NCBI GenBank assembly: GCA_947630535.1
Contig: CANRHZ010000009.1
Location: 1 to 47,297, forward strand
Source of the DNA: Candidatus Gastranaerophilales bacterium
Lineage (GTDB): Bacteria > Cyanobacteriota > Vampirovibrionia > Gastranaerophilales > Gastranaerophilaceae
Length of the DNA: 47,297 bases
Direction of reading: 5' to 3'
Part shown: positions 251 to 30,003 of the stretch, piece by piece
Layout: the number at the start of each line of letters is the position of its first letter
Numbering within the stretch: position 1 is the first letter of the stretch
Notes under the pieces: generated by a model
What the model was told of the DNA's origin: nothing
Databases searched by the model: none
The model's input: the letters and a program-made list of their open reading frames with translations, nothing else
Made by a program: the position numbers and the translations under genes

Positions 251-1228
251 ATGCTTATTTTTCTTATTATAACATCCGTTTTTGTTTTTATTTTTTCGGT
301 TATTATCGGCATTTTGGCCGCAAAGATGATTAAACTTGCATCCTATCAATCTAAAATGGAAGATTATATTAAAGGGGCGGTAAATAAAATTAATCAGGCA
401 AGGTATGGCAACTTTCAAATTAAACTTGATGAAAAAGAGGATGATCCGGGGCTTTATAAAAGTTTAAACGACCTTTTTGAAAGCATAACCGATAGGGACC
501 TTGTCATTAACGAGTACAGAGAAAAGGAAAAAGAAAACTATAATCTTAAAGAAGAATTTATGGCGGCTTTAACCCATGACCTAAAAGTTCCCATTATAGC
601 TGCGGATAAAACTTATGACCTGTTAATTTCAAACAAGTTCGGAAATATAACAGAAAATCAAAAGGAAGTAATAATAAAATTAAAAGAGTCAAACGATGAC
701 CTTATAAAGATGGTTAATTCAATTTTAGAAACCTATAAAATAGAAAATAGCGGAATTGAATTAAACATAGAAGAAAATATAGATGTTGAAGAATTTATAA
801 AATCGGTTGTTGAATCTTCAAGCAATATAGCTAAGTCTCAGGGAAAAGAGATAAATTTTTATATGGATACAAAAAAATTCCAAGCCAATTTTGATAAAAT
901 GCTCATAAAAAGGGTTATAAACAATTTGATAATAAATGCGATAAATCACAGTGTTTCAACAAATAAAATAGATATCCACCTCAATAAAACGGGGGACACT
1001 TTTTCGATTGATGTTATTGATTTTGGAGAGGGGATTGATGAAGATGAAATTGAGAAAATATTTAACAAATACTATTCAATTACAAATAAAACAACAAGAG
1101 TTTCAACGGGTTTAGGCCTATACCTTTCAAATAAAATCGTAAAAAAACATAAAGGAATAATTGAAGCGGAATCAAAGAAAAATGAAGGGTCAATTTTTAG
1201 AATAATTCTTCCCCTTAAAATTCTTTAA
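251..1228 (+). CDS. membrane sensor histidine kinase
   Basis: A two-component sensor kinase of 325 residues. A single hydrophobic segment (about residues 2-24) is followed by a linker resembling a HAMP/coiled region (25-100). The dimerisation and phospho-acceptor helix follows, with His109 in ALTHDLKVP. The ATPase domain has an N box (NNLIINAINHS), a G1 box (DFGEGIDEDE) and a G2 box (TGLGLYLSNK). It autophosphorylates on histidine and should pass phosphate to a response regulator, but none is encoded nearby in the window. There is almost no periplasmic sensor, so the signal is probably sensed in or near the membrane. The 3' end overlaps the convergent MEMO-AMMECR1 gene by 14 bases. The signal is unknown. 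Confidence 0.9.
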   Translation: MLIFLIITSVFVFIFSVIIGILAAKMIKLASYQSKMEDYIKGAVNKINQARYGNFQIKLDEKEDDPGLYKSLNDLFESITDRDLVINEYREKEKENYNLKEEFMAALTHDLKVPIIAADKTYDLLISNKFGNITENQKEVIIKLKESNDDLIKMVNSILETYKIENSGIELNIEENIDVEEFIKSVVESSSNIAKSQGKEINFYMDTKKFQANFDKMLIKRVINNLIINAINHSVSTNKIDIHLNKTGDTFSIDVIDFGEGIDEDEIEKIFNKYYSITNKTTRVSTGLGLYLSNKIVKKHKGIIEAESKKNEGSIFRIILPLKIL

Positions 1229-2549
1229 TGTATGTTGTGTGGAACCTGTAGGCCTTAAAAGTATCCGAAAAATAATTATAAGGAAGCCCCGCCTTTTGTT
1301 TTAGAGAATTTAGAAAATCTTTCTTGTCTTTAATTTGCTCCCAAACGGAAGGAAGGTAAACCGCCCTATAATTCCCGTCCTGTATAATTATTCCGTCAAT
1401 ATCCTTATTTATTTTATCAAGAAGTTCTTTTTCATTTTTGAATTCAATTAAAGAGGGGCTTGATAAAAGAGAAACGTTTATTTTTATATCCTCGATTTCA
1501 TTTTCAATAACGGGAGTAAACCTCGGGTCGTTAAATGCGGAACTTTTTGCATTCATTATTAAATCCTTTATTAAAGGGCGGTATTGAATAATTGAACCTA
1601 TACATCCTCTTAAATTTCCGTTTTTTTCTAACGTAACAAAGGATGCGCCCTTTTCATCAAAGACTCTGTCGTATTTTATTTCAACATTTTGATTTACAAA
1701 GGCTTGTTTTATAGAAATTCTTGCAAGTTTTATTATAAAATCGGAATAATACTCTTTAAGGTAGTTATTTTTCTCACCCTCGTAAAGTCCCCAGACGCCA
1801 TACCCTACAACCCTTGATTTATCGTTATTAACAAGGGAAGAATTTCTCATATCAAGTCTTATTAGAGAATGGCCATTCTTTTTTGCAAAAAGCAAAAGTC
1901 CTAAAATTCCTGTAATGCCGCATGCCATATTTGGCAAGATATTATTAAAATCAAGGGTTTCAATCATATCTGCCGTTTTTAAATCAAGTTCAAGCGCATT
2001 TTTATCCGATAAAAAGTGACTTAAATCAGATGATATAATAAAGCCTGTGTCTTTATTTTCCCAGTATTTTGAAATAATACTTTCAATTTTATTAAAATTT
2101 TCATTCCCGATTAAAACGGGAACTATTTTTACCTCTTTATATAATGTTTGAATTATGGGAAGTTCAACTTCTATCGAATGTTCAAACTCAAATGCTTTAT
2201 CGTTATAATTTGCGCCAAAGTTTTGAATTAAATCGTTCAAGATTTCTTTATTTAATTCTATATTCCCAAGAGGGGTTGAAAAATAATCATAATTAGAAAT
2301 TCCGATACCATCAAAGCCGACTTTATGTGCGGGAGCAAATATAAAAAGGGTTTTTAAGTTCTTATCAAGAGAATTTATCCCTTTGTAGCTAAGGATGCCT
2401 GAATATATAAGCCCCGCATGCGGAACAATAACCGCCCTTGTTTGAAGCTTGGTATCGTTTGTTTTTATTTTTTGAATAAAGTTGTAAAGTTCGTCTTTAT
2501 CCTTGGGATAAAAAATTCCTTCAACGGATGCTTGTTTTATTTTTTCCAT
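1215..2549 (-). CDS. MEMO-AMMECR1 fusion (AmmeMemoRadiSam proteins B and A)
   Basis: Two domains are joined in one chain. The N-terminal half (about residues 1-260) is a MEMO-type, dioxygenase-like domain with VPHAGLIYSG, FEHSIEVELP and SSDLSHF, the family's putative metal-site histidines and acids. The C-terminal half (about 270-444) is AMMECR1, with the LRGCIGS signature and FNDPRFTPV. These are proteins B and A of the AmmeMemoRadiSam set, whose biochemical role is not established. The radical SAM partner is divergently transcribed 23 bp away. I start at ATG 2549 because the protein then begins MEKIKQASVEGIFYP, as MEMO proteins do. An upstream in-frame ATG at 2606 lies inside the neighbouring gene. 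The likely -10 ends six bases before this ATG, so the mRNA may be leaderless. Confidence 0.9.
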   Translation of the reverse strand: MEKIKQASVEGIFYPKDKDELYNFIQKIKTNDTKLQTRAVIVPHAGLIYSGILSYKGINSLDKNLKTLFIFAPAHKVGFDGIGISNYDYFSTPLGNIELNKEILNDLIQNFGANYNDKAFEFEHSIEVELPIIQTLYKEVKIVPVLIGNENFNKIESIISKYWENKDTGFIISSDLSHFLSDKNALELDLKTADMIETLDFNNILPNMACGITGILGLLLFAKKNGHSLIRLDMRNSSLVNNDKSRVVGYGVWGLYEGEKNNYLKEYYSDFIIKLARISIKQAFVNQNVEIKYDRVFDEKGASFVTLEKNGNLRGCIGSIIQYRPLIKDLIMNAKSSAFNDPRFTPVIENEIEDIKINVSLLSSPSLIEFKNEKELLDKINKDIDGIIIQDGNYRAVYLPSVWEQIKDKKDFLNSLKQKAGLPYNYFSDTFKAYRFHTTYIKEF

Positions 2550-2554
2550 AAAAC

Positions 2555-2584
2555 GATTATAATCATTTTTAAATGAAATATCAA
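2555..2584. promoter_or_regulatory. symmetric bidirectional -10 between divergent genes
   Basis: GATTATAATC (2555-2564) is a perfect palindrome and contains TATAAT on both strands. On the minus strand TTGATA (2584-2579), a 17-base spacer and TATAAT (2561-2556) form a good promoter for the MEMO-AMMECR1 gene. On the plus strand TATAAT (2558-2563) lies nine bases before the radical SAM start. There is no room for a ribosome site on either side. Confidence 0.6.
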
Positions 2585-3571
2585 AAGAAAATAAATAATA
2601 AAACAAAATGCCTTATATGCCCGAGGGAATGCACACTATCAGAAGGGCAGGAAGGGTTTTGTCATATAAGAAAAAATGTTGGGGGCGATATAATATTAAC
2701 CGCCTACGGCAAAAATACGGGGCTTTCCGTTGACCCTATTGAAAAAAAGCCCCTCTACCATTTTTATCCAAACTCAAAAATTCTATCCTTTGGTACATAT
2801 GGCTGCAATATGGGGTGTTTATTTTGCCAAAACTTCCATATAACAAAAACAAAACAGACTCCTGATAGCCTTCCTTTTATCTCTCCCCAAACAATTGTTG
2901 ACCTTTCAATTAAAAATAACATTAAAAGCATTGCATTTACTTATAATGACCCTGTTGTCTTTTTTGAATATGCTCTTGATACGGCAAAAATTGCAAAAGA
3001 AGAAGGGATTAAAACTGTGGCAGTTAGCGCAGGCTATATGCAACAAACCCCGAGAAAAGAGTTTTATAAATATATAGACGGTGCAAATATTGACCTTAAG
3101 GGGTTTAGTGATGAATTTTATAAGAAAAATTGCTTATCCCGATTAACACCCGTTTTAGATACCATAAAATATATTAAAAATGAAACAGACACTCACCTTG
3201 AAATTACAACTATGCTAATAGAAGGGGAAAACGACTCAGATGATATTCTAAAAGCGGAACTTGATTGGATTTTAGATAATATAGGGGATTTAGTCCCTTT
3301 GCATTTTAGCGCATTTACTCCAAGATATAAATTTATTAAAAAATCGGCAACAAAGCCTGAAACCTTATATATGGCAAGGGAACTTGCACTATCATTCGGG
3401 CTAAAGTATGTTTATACGGGAAACATTATAAATAAAGAAACGTCAACAACATATTGCAAACACTGCAAAAAACCCGTTATTGTAAGGGACGGATACAGAG
3501 TTTTAGAATGTAACCTTGATAAAAACGGTGCTTGTATATATTGTAACGGTATGTGCGACGGCAGGTATTAA
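2573..3571 (+). CDS. amrS: AmmeMemoRadiSam radical SAM enzyme
   Basis: A radical SAM protein of 332 residues. The 4Fe-4S/SAM motif is CNMGCLFC, a CxxxCxxC signature, near residue 82. An N-terminal Cys cluster (CLICPRECTLSEGQEGFC) and a C-terminal Cys-rich tail (CKHCKKP, CIYCNGMC) are the added cysteines typical of the AmrS branch of pyruvate formate-lyase activase-like enzymes. The reaction is unknown. Family co-occurrence with MEMO and AMMECR1 proteins, repeated here by the divergent fusion gene, suggests that the three modify or act on one substrate. No Shine-Dalgarno is visible before ATG 2573. The gene ends directly before a convergent terminator. Confidence 0.9.
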   Translation: MKYQKKINNKTKCLICPRECTLSEGQEGFCHIRKNVGGDIILTAYGKNTGLSVDPIEKKPLYHFYPNSKILSFGTYGCNMGCLFCQNFHITKTKQTPDSLPFISPQTIVDLSIKNNIKSIAFTYNDPVVFFEYALDTAKIAKEEGIKTVAVSAGYMQQTPRKEFYKYIDGANIDLKGFSDEFYKKNCLSRLTPVLDTIKYIKNETDTHLEITTMLIEGENDSDDILKAELDWILDNIGDLVPLHFSAFTPRYKFIKKSATKPETLYMARELALSFGLKYVYTGNIINKETSTTYCKHCKKPVIVRDGYRVLECNLDKNGACIYCNGMCDGRY

Positions 3572-16835: not shown

Positions 16836-17504
16836 TTAAATATTTTTTTCACAGTATTTATTTATAGAACAAATATTGCACTTTGGATTTACGGGTTTGC
16901 ACACGTTTTGCCCGTGAGTTACAAGGAGCGTGTTAAAATCAATCCAATATTTTTTTGGCAAAATTTCCCGAAGTTTAAATTCCGTTTCTTCGGGGTTTTT
17001 TGTTTTTACATAACCCAATCTGTTTGTAATTCTATGGACATGGACATCAACGCAAATTGCCGGCATGTTAAACCCTTTGGCTAAAACAAGGTTAGCGGTT
17101 TTTCTTCCGACCCCCTTAAATTTAGTCAACTCATCAATATCAAAAGGCACTTTTGAGTTATACTTTTCTACAAGAATTTTTGATAATTCAATAATGTCTT
17201 TTGCTTTATTTTTGTAAAAACCAACGGGATAAATTGCATCGGCTAAAACATCGACATCAAGTTTTGAAATCTCCTTTGGGGTTTTACCGAGTTTTAACAT
17301 CCTGATTGATGAAGGATAGGTTGTTTTATCGTTTGTCCTCAAAGATAAGATACAACAAATTAAAACAATGTAAGGGTCGCCGACTTTTTCCATAAATTTG
17401 ACAAATTCCGTTTGGACTACGCTATTTGTCTTATTATCATTTATCAGTGCCTCAATTATACTGTCTATATCCAACTTAAAATCCCTTATTATTTGCTTTG
17501 ACAT
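16836..17504 (-). CDS. nth: endonuclease III
   Basis: A base-excision repair glycosylase/AP lyase acting on oxidised pyrimidines. The helix-hairpin-helix FKGVGRKTANLVLA carries the catalytic Lys, and the catalytic Asp is in CVDVHVHRITNRLG. The 4Fe-4S cluster site is Cys-x6-Cys-x2-Cys-x5-Cys in CKPVNPKCNICSINKYC. The length is 222 residues, full for the family. It faces trxA across a 51-bp gap holding overlapping promoters. Its start codon lies next to the trxA -35 element, so the two genes may compete for polymerase. Its own leader would be about eight bases with no ribosome site. Confidence 0.95.
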   Translation of the reverse strand: MSKQIIRDFKLDIDSIIEALINDNKTNSVVQTEFVKFMEKVGDPYIVLICCILSLRTNDKTTYPSSIRMLKLGKTPKEISKLDVDVLADAIYPVGFYKNKAKDIIELSKILVEKYNSKVPFDIDELTKFKGVGRKTANLVLAKGFNMPAICVDVHVHRITNRLGYVKTKNPEETEFKLREILPKKYWIDFNTLLVTHGQNVCKPVNPKCNICSINKYCEKNI

Positions 17505-17526
17505 GCTTTTAAATCATGATTATAAT
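17498..17526 (+). promoter_or_regulatory. consensus trxA promoter overlapping the nth start
   Basis: TTGACA (17498-17503), exactly 17 bases, TATAAT (17521-17526): a full consensus sigma-70 promoter. The -35 covers the nth start region. ATTATAAT (17519-17526) is palindromic and gives a minus-strand TATAAT (17524-17519) for nth. Confidence 0.75.
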
Positions 17527-17555
17527 ACTAAAAAGTCTTTATGGGAGGAAAATTT

Positions 17556-17879
17556 ATGTCCAGTGCTATAGATATTGATGATAATACATTTGAAAAAGAA
17601 GTTTTATCGAGCGACACATTGACCGTTGTAGATTTTTGGGCACCATGGTGCGGGCCTTGCAGAAAAATGGGCCCCGTATTGGATGAGATAGCTCAAGAAT
17701 ATAAAGATAAAATAAAAGTGGTTAAGATTAATGCCGATGAAAACGTAAAAACGGCAACAGAATATCAAATTTCCAGTCTGCCGAGCATTTATATCTTTAA
17801 AAACGGTGAAGCAAAAGAAACTCTTGTAGGCTTAATGCCAAAATCAGCAATAGTTTCAAATATACAAAAATACCTGTAA
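17556..17879 (+). CDS. trxA: thioredoxin
   Basis: A general disulfide reductase of 107 residues. The active site is WAPWCGPCRKM, with the CGPC pair. The cis-proline SLPSIYIFKNG and a C-terminal helix are in place. The start at ATG 17556 follows the strong ribosome site GGGAGG; an upstream in-frame ATG at 17541 would put that site inside the gene. It is transcribed alone from a consensus promoter and ends in a bidirectional terminator, suggesting high constitutive expression. Targets probably include reductases and peroxiredoxins elsewhere in the genome. Confidence 0.96.
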   Translation: MSSAIDIDDNTFEKEVLSSDTLTVVDFWAPWCGPCRKMGPVLDEIAQEYKDKIKVVKINADENVKTATEYQISSLPSIYIFKNGEAKETLVGLMPKSAIVSNIQKYL

Positions 17880-27893: not shown

Positions 27894-29855
27894 TTATATT
27901 TTAACATTTTCATACGTTAAAAGGTAATTCCAATATGCACCGTATACCTTTTTAATATATTCCCTTGTTTCTCTGTAGGGAATATTTTCCACCATAATAT
28001 CAAACGGTAAATCCTGAAACTCTTTTAGCCAGCCTTTAACCGCATTTGGGCCTGAATTGTATGATAGCACACACAAAGATTCGTTATCGGAAAAAATATC
28101 CATAAGATAAGAAAAGTATTTACTCCCAAGTTCAATATTGATATCAGGGTCTCTTAATTCGCTTACACTATAACTCTTATCAGATATCATAAGGGCGGTT
28201 GACGGCATTATTTGAGAAAGTCCTATTGCTCCAACGGGACTTTGAATGTTCGGATTAAAGTGGCTTTCTTCCTTTATAACGGATAAAATTAAATAAGGGT
28301 TTAGGCCTTTATCCGAAGCCCATTTATTTATCGGTTCGCTATAATAGATGGGGTATGCAAGCTTCCATACGACGTTATCTCTTGCGGGCAAAACTTTGGA
28401 AGATTGTATGTAGTCCCTTGCAATTACACTTGATAGAGCCCTATTTCCCTTTTTATATTCTATCCAGCTTTTTAAAACGGGGTCATTTATTCTGAAATCT
28501 TCGATATTTTGTGTGTCATCTTCAAACAAGAAGTTTTCAAAGAATGTTTTTGCAACTTTATCATCCGAATAGGGAAAATCAATTTTTATATTTTTTGCAA
28601 CCTGAATATTTCTTTTGTTTTCAAAATTTTTGTTTTCAATGTTGGAATATGCCCGGTAAGTATAATAACTGTTTCGATACTCGCTTTCAAGCCTTGAGAG
28701 TGCGTCTTTCCATTTTGCATCCATTGTTTTCTTTTGAATTAATGCCATAAAATATAATACGGCGGGAGTTGTATTTTTATCGTTGTACCTTGCAAGGTGT
28801 AACTTGCCGTATTTAGAGGCAAGTATAATTTTGTTTTCGGTTAATGCCCATCTAAAAAGCTGATATAGTGCAATTTGTGCATACTTTGAATTGGGATATG
28901 CTTCATAGAGTCTGACTTTTCTTTTGTATGCTTCATCTTTATCAGTATAAAAAGTGCTTTTATAAAGGACAATTGCTTTAATTTTATCTTCTTTTGAGGT
29001 ATTGTATATGTTTTCTAATTCAAGAAGGGTGTTTCCTTTTATATGGTTTAGATATATAGAAATAATTTCATCAAGCGTATCATCATCAAAAATTGAATTT
29101 TCGGTGCCAAAACCTTTTTTTGCGACTTTAATAACATTTGATGTTGAGTTTAATTTATCAAGAGCTTTAATCAAATATACCCATGTATGTTCAATCGGAA
29201 CCCCTTTTAGAAATAAAACGGACTCCATATACATTTTATTTTCATAGTAAGATAGGGCACAAGAGATTTTTTCTTCCTCGGATAAAAAGTCTTTATAATT
29301 TTTTATATCGGATAGTGCATTAATTGAATATTTGCCGCTCGGAGAATTTTTAAGGTATAAGGATAAAAGGTGTGCTTTTTTTTCTTTGTTATTTTCAAAT
29401 TGAGCAAGCTTATAGTTTGATGCAATTGAATATTCGGAATCTTTATACTTTTCATTTAATTTTAAATACGTTTTTTTTGCTTTATATTTTTTATTTGTTT
29501 CTTCATATAAATTGCCCAGTCGCCAGAGTACAAAAGGACTAATATATTTATTTTTTACAAGCTTGTTTAAAGTTTCATATTTTTTTATGGCAGTTTTTTT
29601 ATCATCAATTAAATCTGCGCACTTTGCCTGTTTATACAAAGAATTATAAAAAAGTTTGGATGCGGGATAAATTTTAGAAAAATTATAGTATGCATTTTGA
29701 TAATCTTTATTTTCGTAAAATTCAAGCCCTTGAGAATAGTATTGGTAAGCGTTTTTATCCTGCTTATATAAAAAAGCGCACGCTAAAAGTATTAAAGCGG
29801 AAAAAACAAAAATTATAAAAAATACAACTACTTTAGAAAGCTTCTTAAAATCCAT
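27894..29855 (-). CDS. lytic transglycosylase with TPR-like repeats (Slt type)
   Basis: Cleaves peptidoglycan glycan strands to form 1,6-anhydro-muropeptides. The protein (653 residues) has an N-terminal membrane anchor or signal (VVVFFIIFVFSALILLACAF), which could be a lipoprotein-like site at ALILLACA. A long tetratricopeptide-type helical region follows. The C-terminal goose-lysozyme-like domain has the catalytic Glu in VIKEESHFNP, then GAIGLSQIMPSTA and SYNSGPNAVKGW. ATG 29855 gives the natural signal sequence; ATG 29906 would add 17 residues upstream of the promoter. An extended -10 TGGTATAAT ends six bases before this ATG, so the mRNA may be leaderless. Confidence 0.92.
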   Translation of the reverse strand: MDFKKLSKVVVFFIIFVFSALILLACAFLYKQDKNAYQYYSQGLEFYENKDYQNAYYNFSKIYPASKLFYNSLYKQAKCADLIDDKKTAIKKYETLNKLVKNKYISPFVLWRLGNLYEETNKKYKAKKTYLKLNEKYKDSEYSIASNYKLAQFENNKEKKAHLLSLYLKNSPSGKYSINALSDIKNYKDFLSEEEKISCALSYYENKMYMESVLFLKGVPIEHTWVYLIKALDKLNSTSNVIKVAKKGFGTENSIFDDDTLDEIISIYLNHIKGNTLLELENIYNTSKEDKIKAIVLYKSTFYTDKDEAYKRKVRLYEAYPNSKYAQIALYQLFRWALTENKIILASKYGKLHLARYNDKNTTPAVLYFMALIQKKTMDAKWKDALSRLESEYRNSYYTYRAYSNIENKNFENKRNIQVAKNIKIDFPYSDDKVAKTFFENFLFEDDTQNIEDFRINDPVLKSWIEYKKGNRALSSVIARDYIQSSKVLPARDNVVWKLAYPIYYSEPINKWASDKGLNPYLILSVIKEESHFNPNIQSPVGAIGLSQIMPSTALMISDKSYSVSELRDPDINIELGSKYFSYLMDIFSDNESLCVLSYNSGPNAVKGWLKEFQDLPFDIMVENIPYRETREYIKKVYGAYWNYLLTYENVKI

Positions 29856-29861
29856 ATAAAG

Positions 29862-29879
29862 ATTATACCATGCTAAAAT
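29862..29879. promoter_or_regulatory. divergent, closely packed -10 elements
   Basis: TGGTATAAT on the minus strand (hexamer 29867-29862) faces the transglycosylase start at 29855. TGCTAAAAT on the plus strand (hexamer 29874-29879) precedes an in-frame ATG at 29887. Both leave 6-7 bases to a start codon. Confidence 0.45.
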
Positions 29880-30003
29880 CCGCCTTATGTCATGCATACG
29901 GCACATGTTGAAGTTTGTAAACTTATGTTACAAAAAGGCAATTATTTTCATTAGATATACTTTATATATACATAAAAAGAGAGATATGAAAGAGAGGCTT
30001 ATC

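Follow-up and report, generated by a model that had tools for sequence, protein, structure and literature searches.

The gap between two divergent genes of a Candidatus Gastranaerophilales genome, which encode a MEMO-AMMECR1 fusion protein and a radical SAM enzyme of the AmmeMemoRadiSam system, very probably holds a bidirectional sigma70-type promoter, in which one palindromic -10 element serves both strands and both transcripts are leaderless or nearly so. This reading draws on the conservation of the element, its spacing from the start codons, the pattern of Shine-Dalgarno sequences and a set of control counts, and it predicts where transcription would start, that both directions would use the element and that they would exclude each other. 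The window, i.e. the whole stretch of 47,297 nucleotides that was analysed, is contig C9 of an AT-rich genome of 1.85 Mb, and its named relatives (loci and genomes carry the prefixes L and G, respectively) are for the most part gut assemblies of Candidatus Gastranaerophilales, a non-photosynthetic order related to Cyanobacteria. We know of no function for the AmmeMemoRadiSam system.

Table 1. Observed and predicted features of the divergent locus (positions are those of the window).
Feature	Position	Strand	Remarks
MEMO-AMMECR1 fusion gene (444 aa)	1215–2549	-	ATG at 2549, pinned by alignment to relatives; transcription predicted to start on the A of the ATG
AmmeMemoRadiSam radical SAM enzyme gene (332 aa)	2573–3571	+	ATG at 2573, pinned by alignment; predicted transcription start at 2571–2573
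Intergenic gap, whole (23 bp)	2550–2572		Two discriminators flanking the palindrome
Perfect palindrome of 10 bp, GATTATAATC	2555–2564		Conserved core ATTATAAT at 2556–2563
Putative -10 (TATAAT), radical SAM gene	2558–2563	+	TATAAT-N6/7-ATG retained in both classes of locus, short and long
Putative -10 (TATAAT), MEMO-AMMECR1 gene	2556–2561	-	Plus-strand ATTATA also in the three loci lacking the full ATTATAAT
-35-like TTGATA, MEMO-AMMECR1 gene	2579–2584	-	17 bp from the -10; inside radical SAM codons 3-4 (Tyr-Gln)

The gene pair and its palindrome

The gene names proposed in the preliminary description, a MEMO-AMMECR1 fusion and a radical SAM enzyme of one system, are confirmed by NCBIfam matches above the curated cut-offs: the fusion protein matches TIGR04336 (MEMO; 205.5 bits against 26) plus TIGR04335 (AMMECR1; 185.3 against 99), and the radical SAM enzyme matches TIGR04337 (451.3 against 220). 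The window shares with the AmmeMemoRadiSam system as defined by NCBIfam all three signature families, with MEMO and AMMECR1 fused, but NCBIfam covers proteins and not expression, to which the present analysis adds the putative shared promoter. The starts of both genes in the fetched relatives were pinned by tblastn, and a start of the MEMO gene further upstream, at TTG 2606, is ruled out, as the relatives align from the ATG given in Table 1.

Several neighbouring genes and variant copies were noted in passing. A gene which we take, from the look of its sequence, to be RibD-like often precedes unlinked MEMO genes (upstream stretches of L217, L221–L224 and L226; L015 and L225 are also concerned), and a presumably RibH-like gene lies between the MEMO and radical SAM genes of G044; these neighbours suggest a link to riboflavin synthesis. 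The MEMO protein of L216 (1333–1551, G121) has an N-terminal extension that is apparently signal-peptide-like. An internal TAG in the MEMO gene of G233 (L222) and an internal TAA in the radical SAM gene of G108 (L126) possibly mark pseudogenes or assembly errors.

As read directly from the window, GATTATAATC is its own reverse complement and provides TATAAT to both strands, with 9 nt between the plus-strand hexamer and the start codon of the radical SAM gene and 6 nt between the minus-strand hexamer and that of the MEMO gene, so that the preliminary description, which had claimed a self-complementary element with these two distances, stands on both points. The two opposite-strand hexamers overlap reciprocally, as is characteristic of bidirectional promoters. 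In a single genome such a palindrome is unremarkable: the window holds seven copies of ATTATAAT, with 4.7 expected, GATTATAATC occurs at three places in G000, and the loose layout CAT-N5-9-ATTATAAT-N5-9-ATG occurs at four places in G000 against one for the reversed control.

Conservation among relatives

Searches with the radical SAM protein gave matches in 35 of 58 relatives and, at E 0.001, in 171 of 383 family genomes; of the family-genome matches, only about 119 places with E below about 1e-100, a limit chosen by eye, were taken as true relatives. The resulting 133 radical SAM loci comprise 113 in which the radical SAM and MEMO genes are adjacent and divergent (gap under 400) and 20 others outside this set. 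The conserved core ATTATAAT lies between the two genes in 110 of the 113 divergent loci of Candidatus Gastranaerophilales and in 22 of the 23 genera that these loci span, although the loci are kin, so that raw counts overstate independence and the Fisher tests take as independent what is related. The element is present in dozens of species. It is this conservation, which one genome is insufficient to provide, that places the palindrome beyond chance; chance alone is accordingly rejected as an explanation, and the check suggested earlier, conservation of the palindrome in related genomes, came out in favour of the shared element. The three loci without ATTATAAT contain ATTATACT (L022 and L152) or ATTATAGC (L020), and in all three the radical SAM hexamer is altered and the MEMO-strand TATAAT intact. 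The element is absent from two Planctomycete-labelled records outside the order (L192 and L196), which hold divergent pairs with long gaps.

Short and long architectures

The divergent loci fall into a short class, with a gap of 20–24 bp in 75 loci (exactly 21 bp in 63, usually as CAT-N6-ATTATAAT-N7-ATG), and a long set of 35 loci with the element, consisting of 33 true long-gap loci (36–67 bp), L113 and L126. The window, with its 23-bp gap and spacers of 6 and 9, belongs to the short class, where the spacer is 6 nt on the MEMO side in 69 of the 75 loci and 7 nt on the radical SAM side in 68. The radical SAM spacer is still 6–7 nt in 31 of the 35 loci of the long set, and the MEMO gene gains a leader. 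L113 is a natural variant with one leader, as it has the short-type spacing on the MEMO side and 16 extra bp before the radical SAM ATG. L126 contains an internal stop and its start was miscalled (true gap 49), and it was omitted from the both-protein tree, the -35 comparison and the Shine-Dalgarno counts.

Shine-Dalgarno 4-mers are found upstream of the MEMO gene in 18 of the 33 long-class loci, and are found before neither gene in the short class (0/76 for MEMO and 0/76 for radical SAM, L113 being counted as short), nor before the radical SAM gene over all classes (0/112). A ribosome-binding site is thus present only where a leader exists. The sharing of one -10 is not universal, as the MEMO gene of the long-class locus L012 has a separate TATAAT of its own at 6 nt from the start codon, and a second TATAAT is found in L147 and L148.

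Compaction by itself may account for the arrangement, as two leaderless genes 21 bp apart, each with a hexamer 6–7 nt from its ATG, are forced to overlap their -10 elements in just this way, and these genomes have many leaderless genes; the anatomy and the starts would be the same as for the bidirectional promoter, and sharing would have neither a regulatory role nor selection behind it. This is possible, though we hold it to be rather unlikely, as gaps of 36–67 bp could hold separate promoters and yet all but three keep ATTATAAT. In a FastTree of both proteins (112 rows) four changes between short and long gaps are needed, and in a rooted FastTree of the radical SAM protein (100 rows with many weak forks, holding 40 of the 76 short-class rows) the long-gap rows are basal to most short-gap rows, with modest support, for which reason the sharing seems older than the compaction. 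On the same weakly supported tree, loss of the MEMO leader (long to short) is only the likelier direction. The ancestral MEMO gene would have had a leader of about 25–30 nt with a Shine-Dalgarno sequence, read from the same palindrome, and this leader was probably lost in the lineage of the window.

Leaderless signature in these genomes

In 447 kb of G000 with 491 candidate ATGs, the distance from TATAAT to ATG peaks at 6 nt (10 cases) and 7 nt (5 cases), as compared with zero or one case at every shorter distance (three in total for 0–5 nt), and in 23 family genomes TATAAT-N6-ATG is found at 2153 sites against 727 in the reversed control, an about threefold excess. The peak and the excess together indicate that leaderless genes are part of this lineage. 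The two genes of the locus conform to what is described in PMC3160421 for TA-led leaderless bacterial genes, which have a TATAAT-like signal about 10–12 bp upstream of the start codon and lack a Shine-Dalgarno sequence, as both have a TATAAT close before the start codon, with a spacer of 6 nt for MEMO and of 9 nt (7 nt in 68 of the 75 short-class loci) for radical SAM, and, in the short class, no Shine-Dalgarno 4-mer. They differ from those genes in that two divergent leaderless genes have one signal in common, the word "divergent" being absent from the main text of PMC3160421. Many Cyanobacteria are described there as using neither Shine-Dalgarno-led nor leaderless initiation, whereas Gastranaerophilales show a clear leaderless signal in the present counts.

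The claim that both messages would begin at or next to the ATG survives in full for the MEMO gene, which has the exact leaderless spacing of 6 nt, and in weakened form for the radical SAM gene, as its spacer is 9 nt in the window against 7 nt in most relatives and a leader of 1–3 nt is as likely as none.

The mirror half of the element

A preceding AT turns TATAAT into the palindrome. Of the other TATAATs in the 447 kb of G000, 3 of 20 start-proximal and 4 of 60 upstream ones are preceded by AT, as are about 10% of TATAAT-N6-ATG sites in the 23 family genomes (228/2153; reversed controls 89/727) and the -10 in 3 of 15 unlinked copies of both genes. By these background counts, AT is not generally favoured in front of -10 elements, and the scarcity of AT both elsewhere and in the unlinked copies suggests that the mirror half of the divergent loci is probably kept by selection.

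Unlinked MEMO genes have TATAAT or TAGAAT 6–7 nt before the ATG in 9 of 12 genomes (11 loci were scored, all but L227, and L216, whose start lies inside a longer gene, and L225 are without it), and neither ATTATAAT nor an AT before the hexamer occurs in any of these nine. Among six unlinked radical SAM genes with a -10-like element near the ATG, ATTATAAT is found in L044, L056 and L153 and not in L101, L108 and L121. The presence of ATTATAAT at these three unlinked genes is evidence against a shared promoter, unless they separated recently; L044, L056 and L153 lie near short-class loci on the tree (L153 being a 94-aa fragment of unsure placement) and may be recent separations from MEMO.

The same three genes would suit an operator, in which the palindrome binds a dimeric regulator of both genes and its double resemblance to a -10 is incidental. 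The symmetry is indeed perfect and reaches 10 bp or more in 46 of the 68 distinct short-class contexts, and at flanking pair 2 the bases are complementary in 38 of 54 distinct gaps, as compared with 30 in shuffles (a value reached by 6 of 2000 shuffles). The core, however, is made up of nothing but the two overlapping TATAAT hexamers, which are spaced from both ATGs as a -10 is from a start site, the long class has no excess flank symmetry at pairs 1–3, the flank symmetry of the short class fits a TATAAT-AC preference on both strands, eight bases are short for such a site, and the unlinked MEMO genes keep the hexamer without the palindrome. As the motif follows the moved gene in none of nine cases for MEMO and three of six for radical SAM, the operator was rejected as the main reading, and we regard it as improbable.

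The -35 region and the output of the two directions

The sole sigma70-like match between positions 2300 and 2800 is the minus-strand TTGATA-17-TATAAT, which agrees with the consensus at 11 of 12 positions. The spacer, 17 bp in the window, is a suboptimal 15 bp in 57 of the 68 distinct short-class contexts. In the radical SAM direction, there is no TTGACA match better than in shuffled sequence. The TTGATA may simply reflect conservation of the Tyr-Gln codons, which also occur in unlinked copies.

A promoter used by the MEMO gene only, with the TATAAT of the other strand neutral and the radical SAM gene transcribed from elsewhere, would explain why the consensus scan scores the minus-strand promoter alone and why the radical SAM side is without a -35, but is very improbable, as in the long set it is the radical SAM hexamer that keeps its distance from the ATG and the MEMO gene that is mostly far off, as the radical SAM gene has no Shine-Dalgarno 4-mer at any locus, and as a neutral hexamer would have decayed.

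It had been proposed that the shared element fixes the ratio of the two products, which does not follow, since the two directions are unequal, with a -35-like element on the MEMO side only and the radical SAM side near the shuffled level; the ratio would instead be set by the flanks (the -35 and the discriminators) and not by the palindrome. Five bidirectional promoters of E. coli are described in PMC12825309 as free of RNA polymerase competition at basal activity.

Proposed mechanism and comparison with known bidirectional promoters

In the proposed mechanism, RNA polymerase facing either way would open the single palindromic -10 (ATTATAAT) by means of the housekeeping sigma factor. A left-facing polymerase would produce a leaderless MEMO-AMMECR1 transcript from the A of the ATG, and a right-facing one a radical SAM mRNA starting 0–3 nt from the ATG. 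Each initiation event would serve one gene, because two polymerases cannot occupy the site together; mutual exclusion within a single initiation event, as the preliminary description had it, is likely on the grounds of this steric overlap. The predicted starts are 22–24 bp apart in the window, where the start codons are 24 apart, and 22 bp apart in the commonest class.

The original paper on divergent transcription is reportedly that of Warman and colleagues in 2021. As described in PMC12825309 and PMC10268837, a symmetrical -10 can be used by bacterial RNA polymerase in either orientation and opposing polymerases cannot bind together, and bidirectional promoters with a shared -10 have starts separated by 7–25 bp, with a preference for 18, 10 and 23 bp. 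The locus resembles these promoters (Warman, Forrest, Wade, Grainger and colleagues; PMC12825309, PMC10268837) in having one -10 for both strands, divergent transcripts and overlapping polymerase sites, and its predicted start separation lies inside the range of 7–25 bp. It differs from those described there in that two protein-coding genes of the same system have their predicted starts at or within a few nucleotides of their start codons, in that both strands carry a perfect hexamer, and in that the element is kept in 22 genera of a single order. The promoters in these two papers come mainly from start-site mapping in E. coli and Salmonella.

A literature search that included work on bidirectional promoters and on leaderless genes, none of it evidently concerned with this arrangement, retrieved, within the collection searched, no report of a double-leaderless shared palindromic -10, nothing on leaderless genes in Melainabacteria and nothing on Gastranaerophilales promoters with transcription starts. 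The bidirectional shared -10 is already known; the predicted double-leaderless, widely conserved form is new.

Occurrence at other gene pairs

The loose layout CAT-N5-9-ATTATAAT-N5-9-ATG is found at 0–5 places per genome in 38 genomes, and a minority of the inspected loci, such as L241 in G017 and L244 in G010, have real-looking genes on both sides. As other loci of this layout show gene pairs, the device may recur, wide conservation having been shown only for the MEMO/radical SAM pair. It is tentatively proposed that Gastranaerophilales possess a lineage-wide device, in which one 8-bp -10 lies between start codons about 22 bp apart, the orientation of the polymerase alone picks the partner mRNA, and UTRs are absent; recurring at other pairs, it would couple the supply of partners or lower noise without a regulator.

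Further arrangements of this kind were observed. A divergent pair of 269 aa and 62–63 aa with the palindrome layout is present in three genomes of the genus of the window (L232, L235 and L236), and L250 likewise has a divergent CAT-N-ATTATAAT-N-ATG layout with open frames on both sides. Within the window, another ATTATAAT (17519–17526) lies in a divergent gap (17504–17556), where 17556, behind GGAGG, is a possible start of the plus-strand gene, which would be a leadered case, and a divergent pair 31 bp apart (29855–29887) has a minus-strand TATAAT 6 nt from the ATG and no TATAAT on the plus strand.

Biological implications

As the mirror half is retained at nearly all divergent loci and absent from the MEMO gene where the pair is split, this deeply conserved locus provides a natural test of selection, as opposed to mere toleration, of shared symmetrical -10 elements. 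The locus further indicates that some 21 bp can suffice as the whole control region of two divergent genes, with a -35-like element lying in the codons of the neighbouring gene. The counts also indicate that a gut lineage related to Cyanobacteria carries many leaderless genes.
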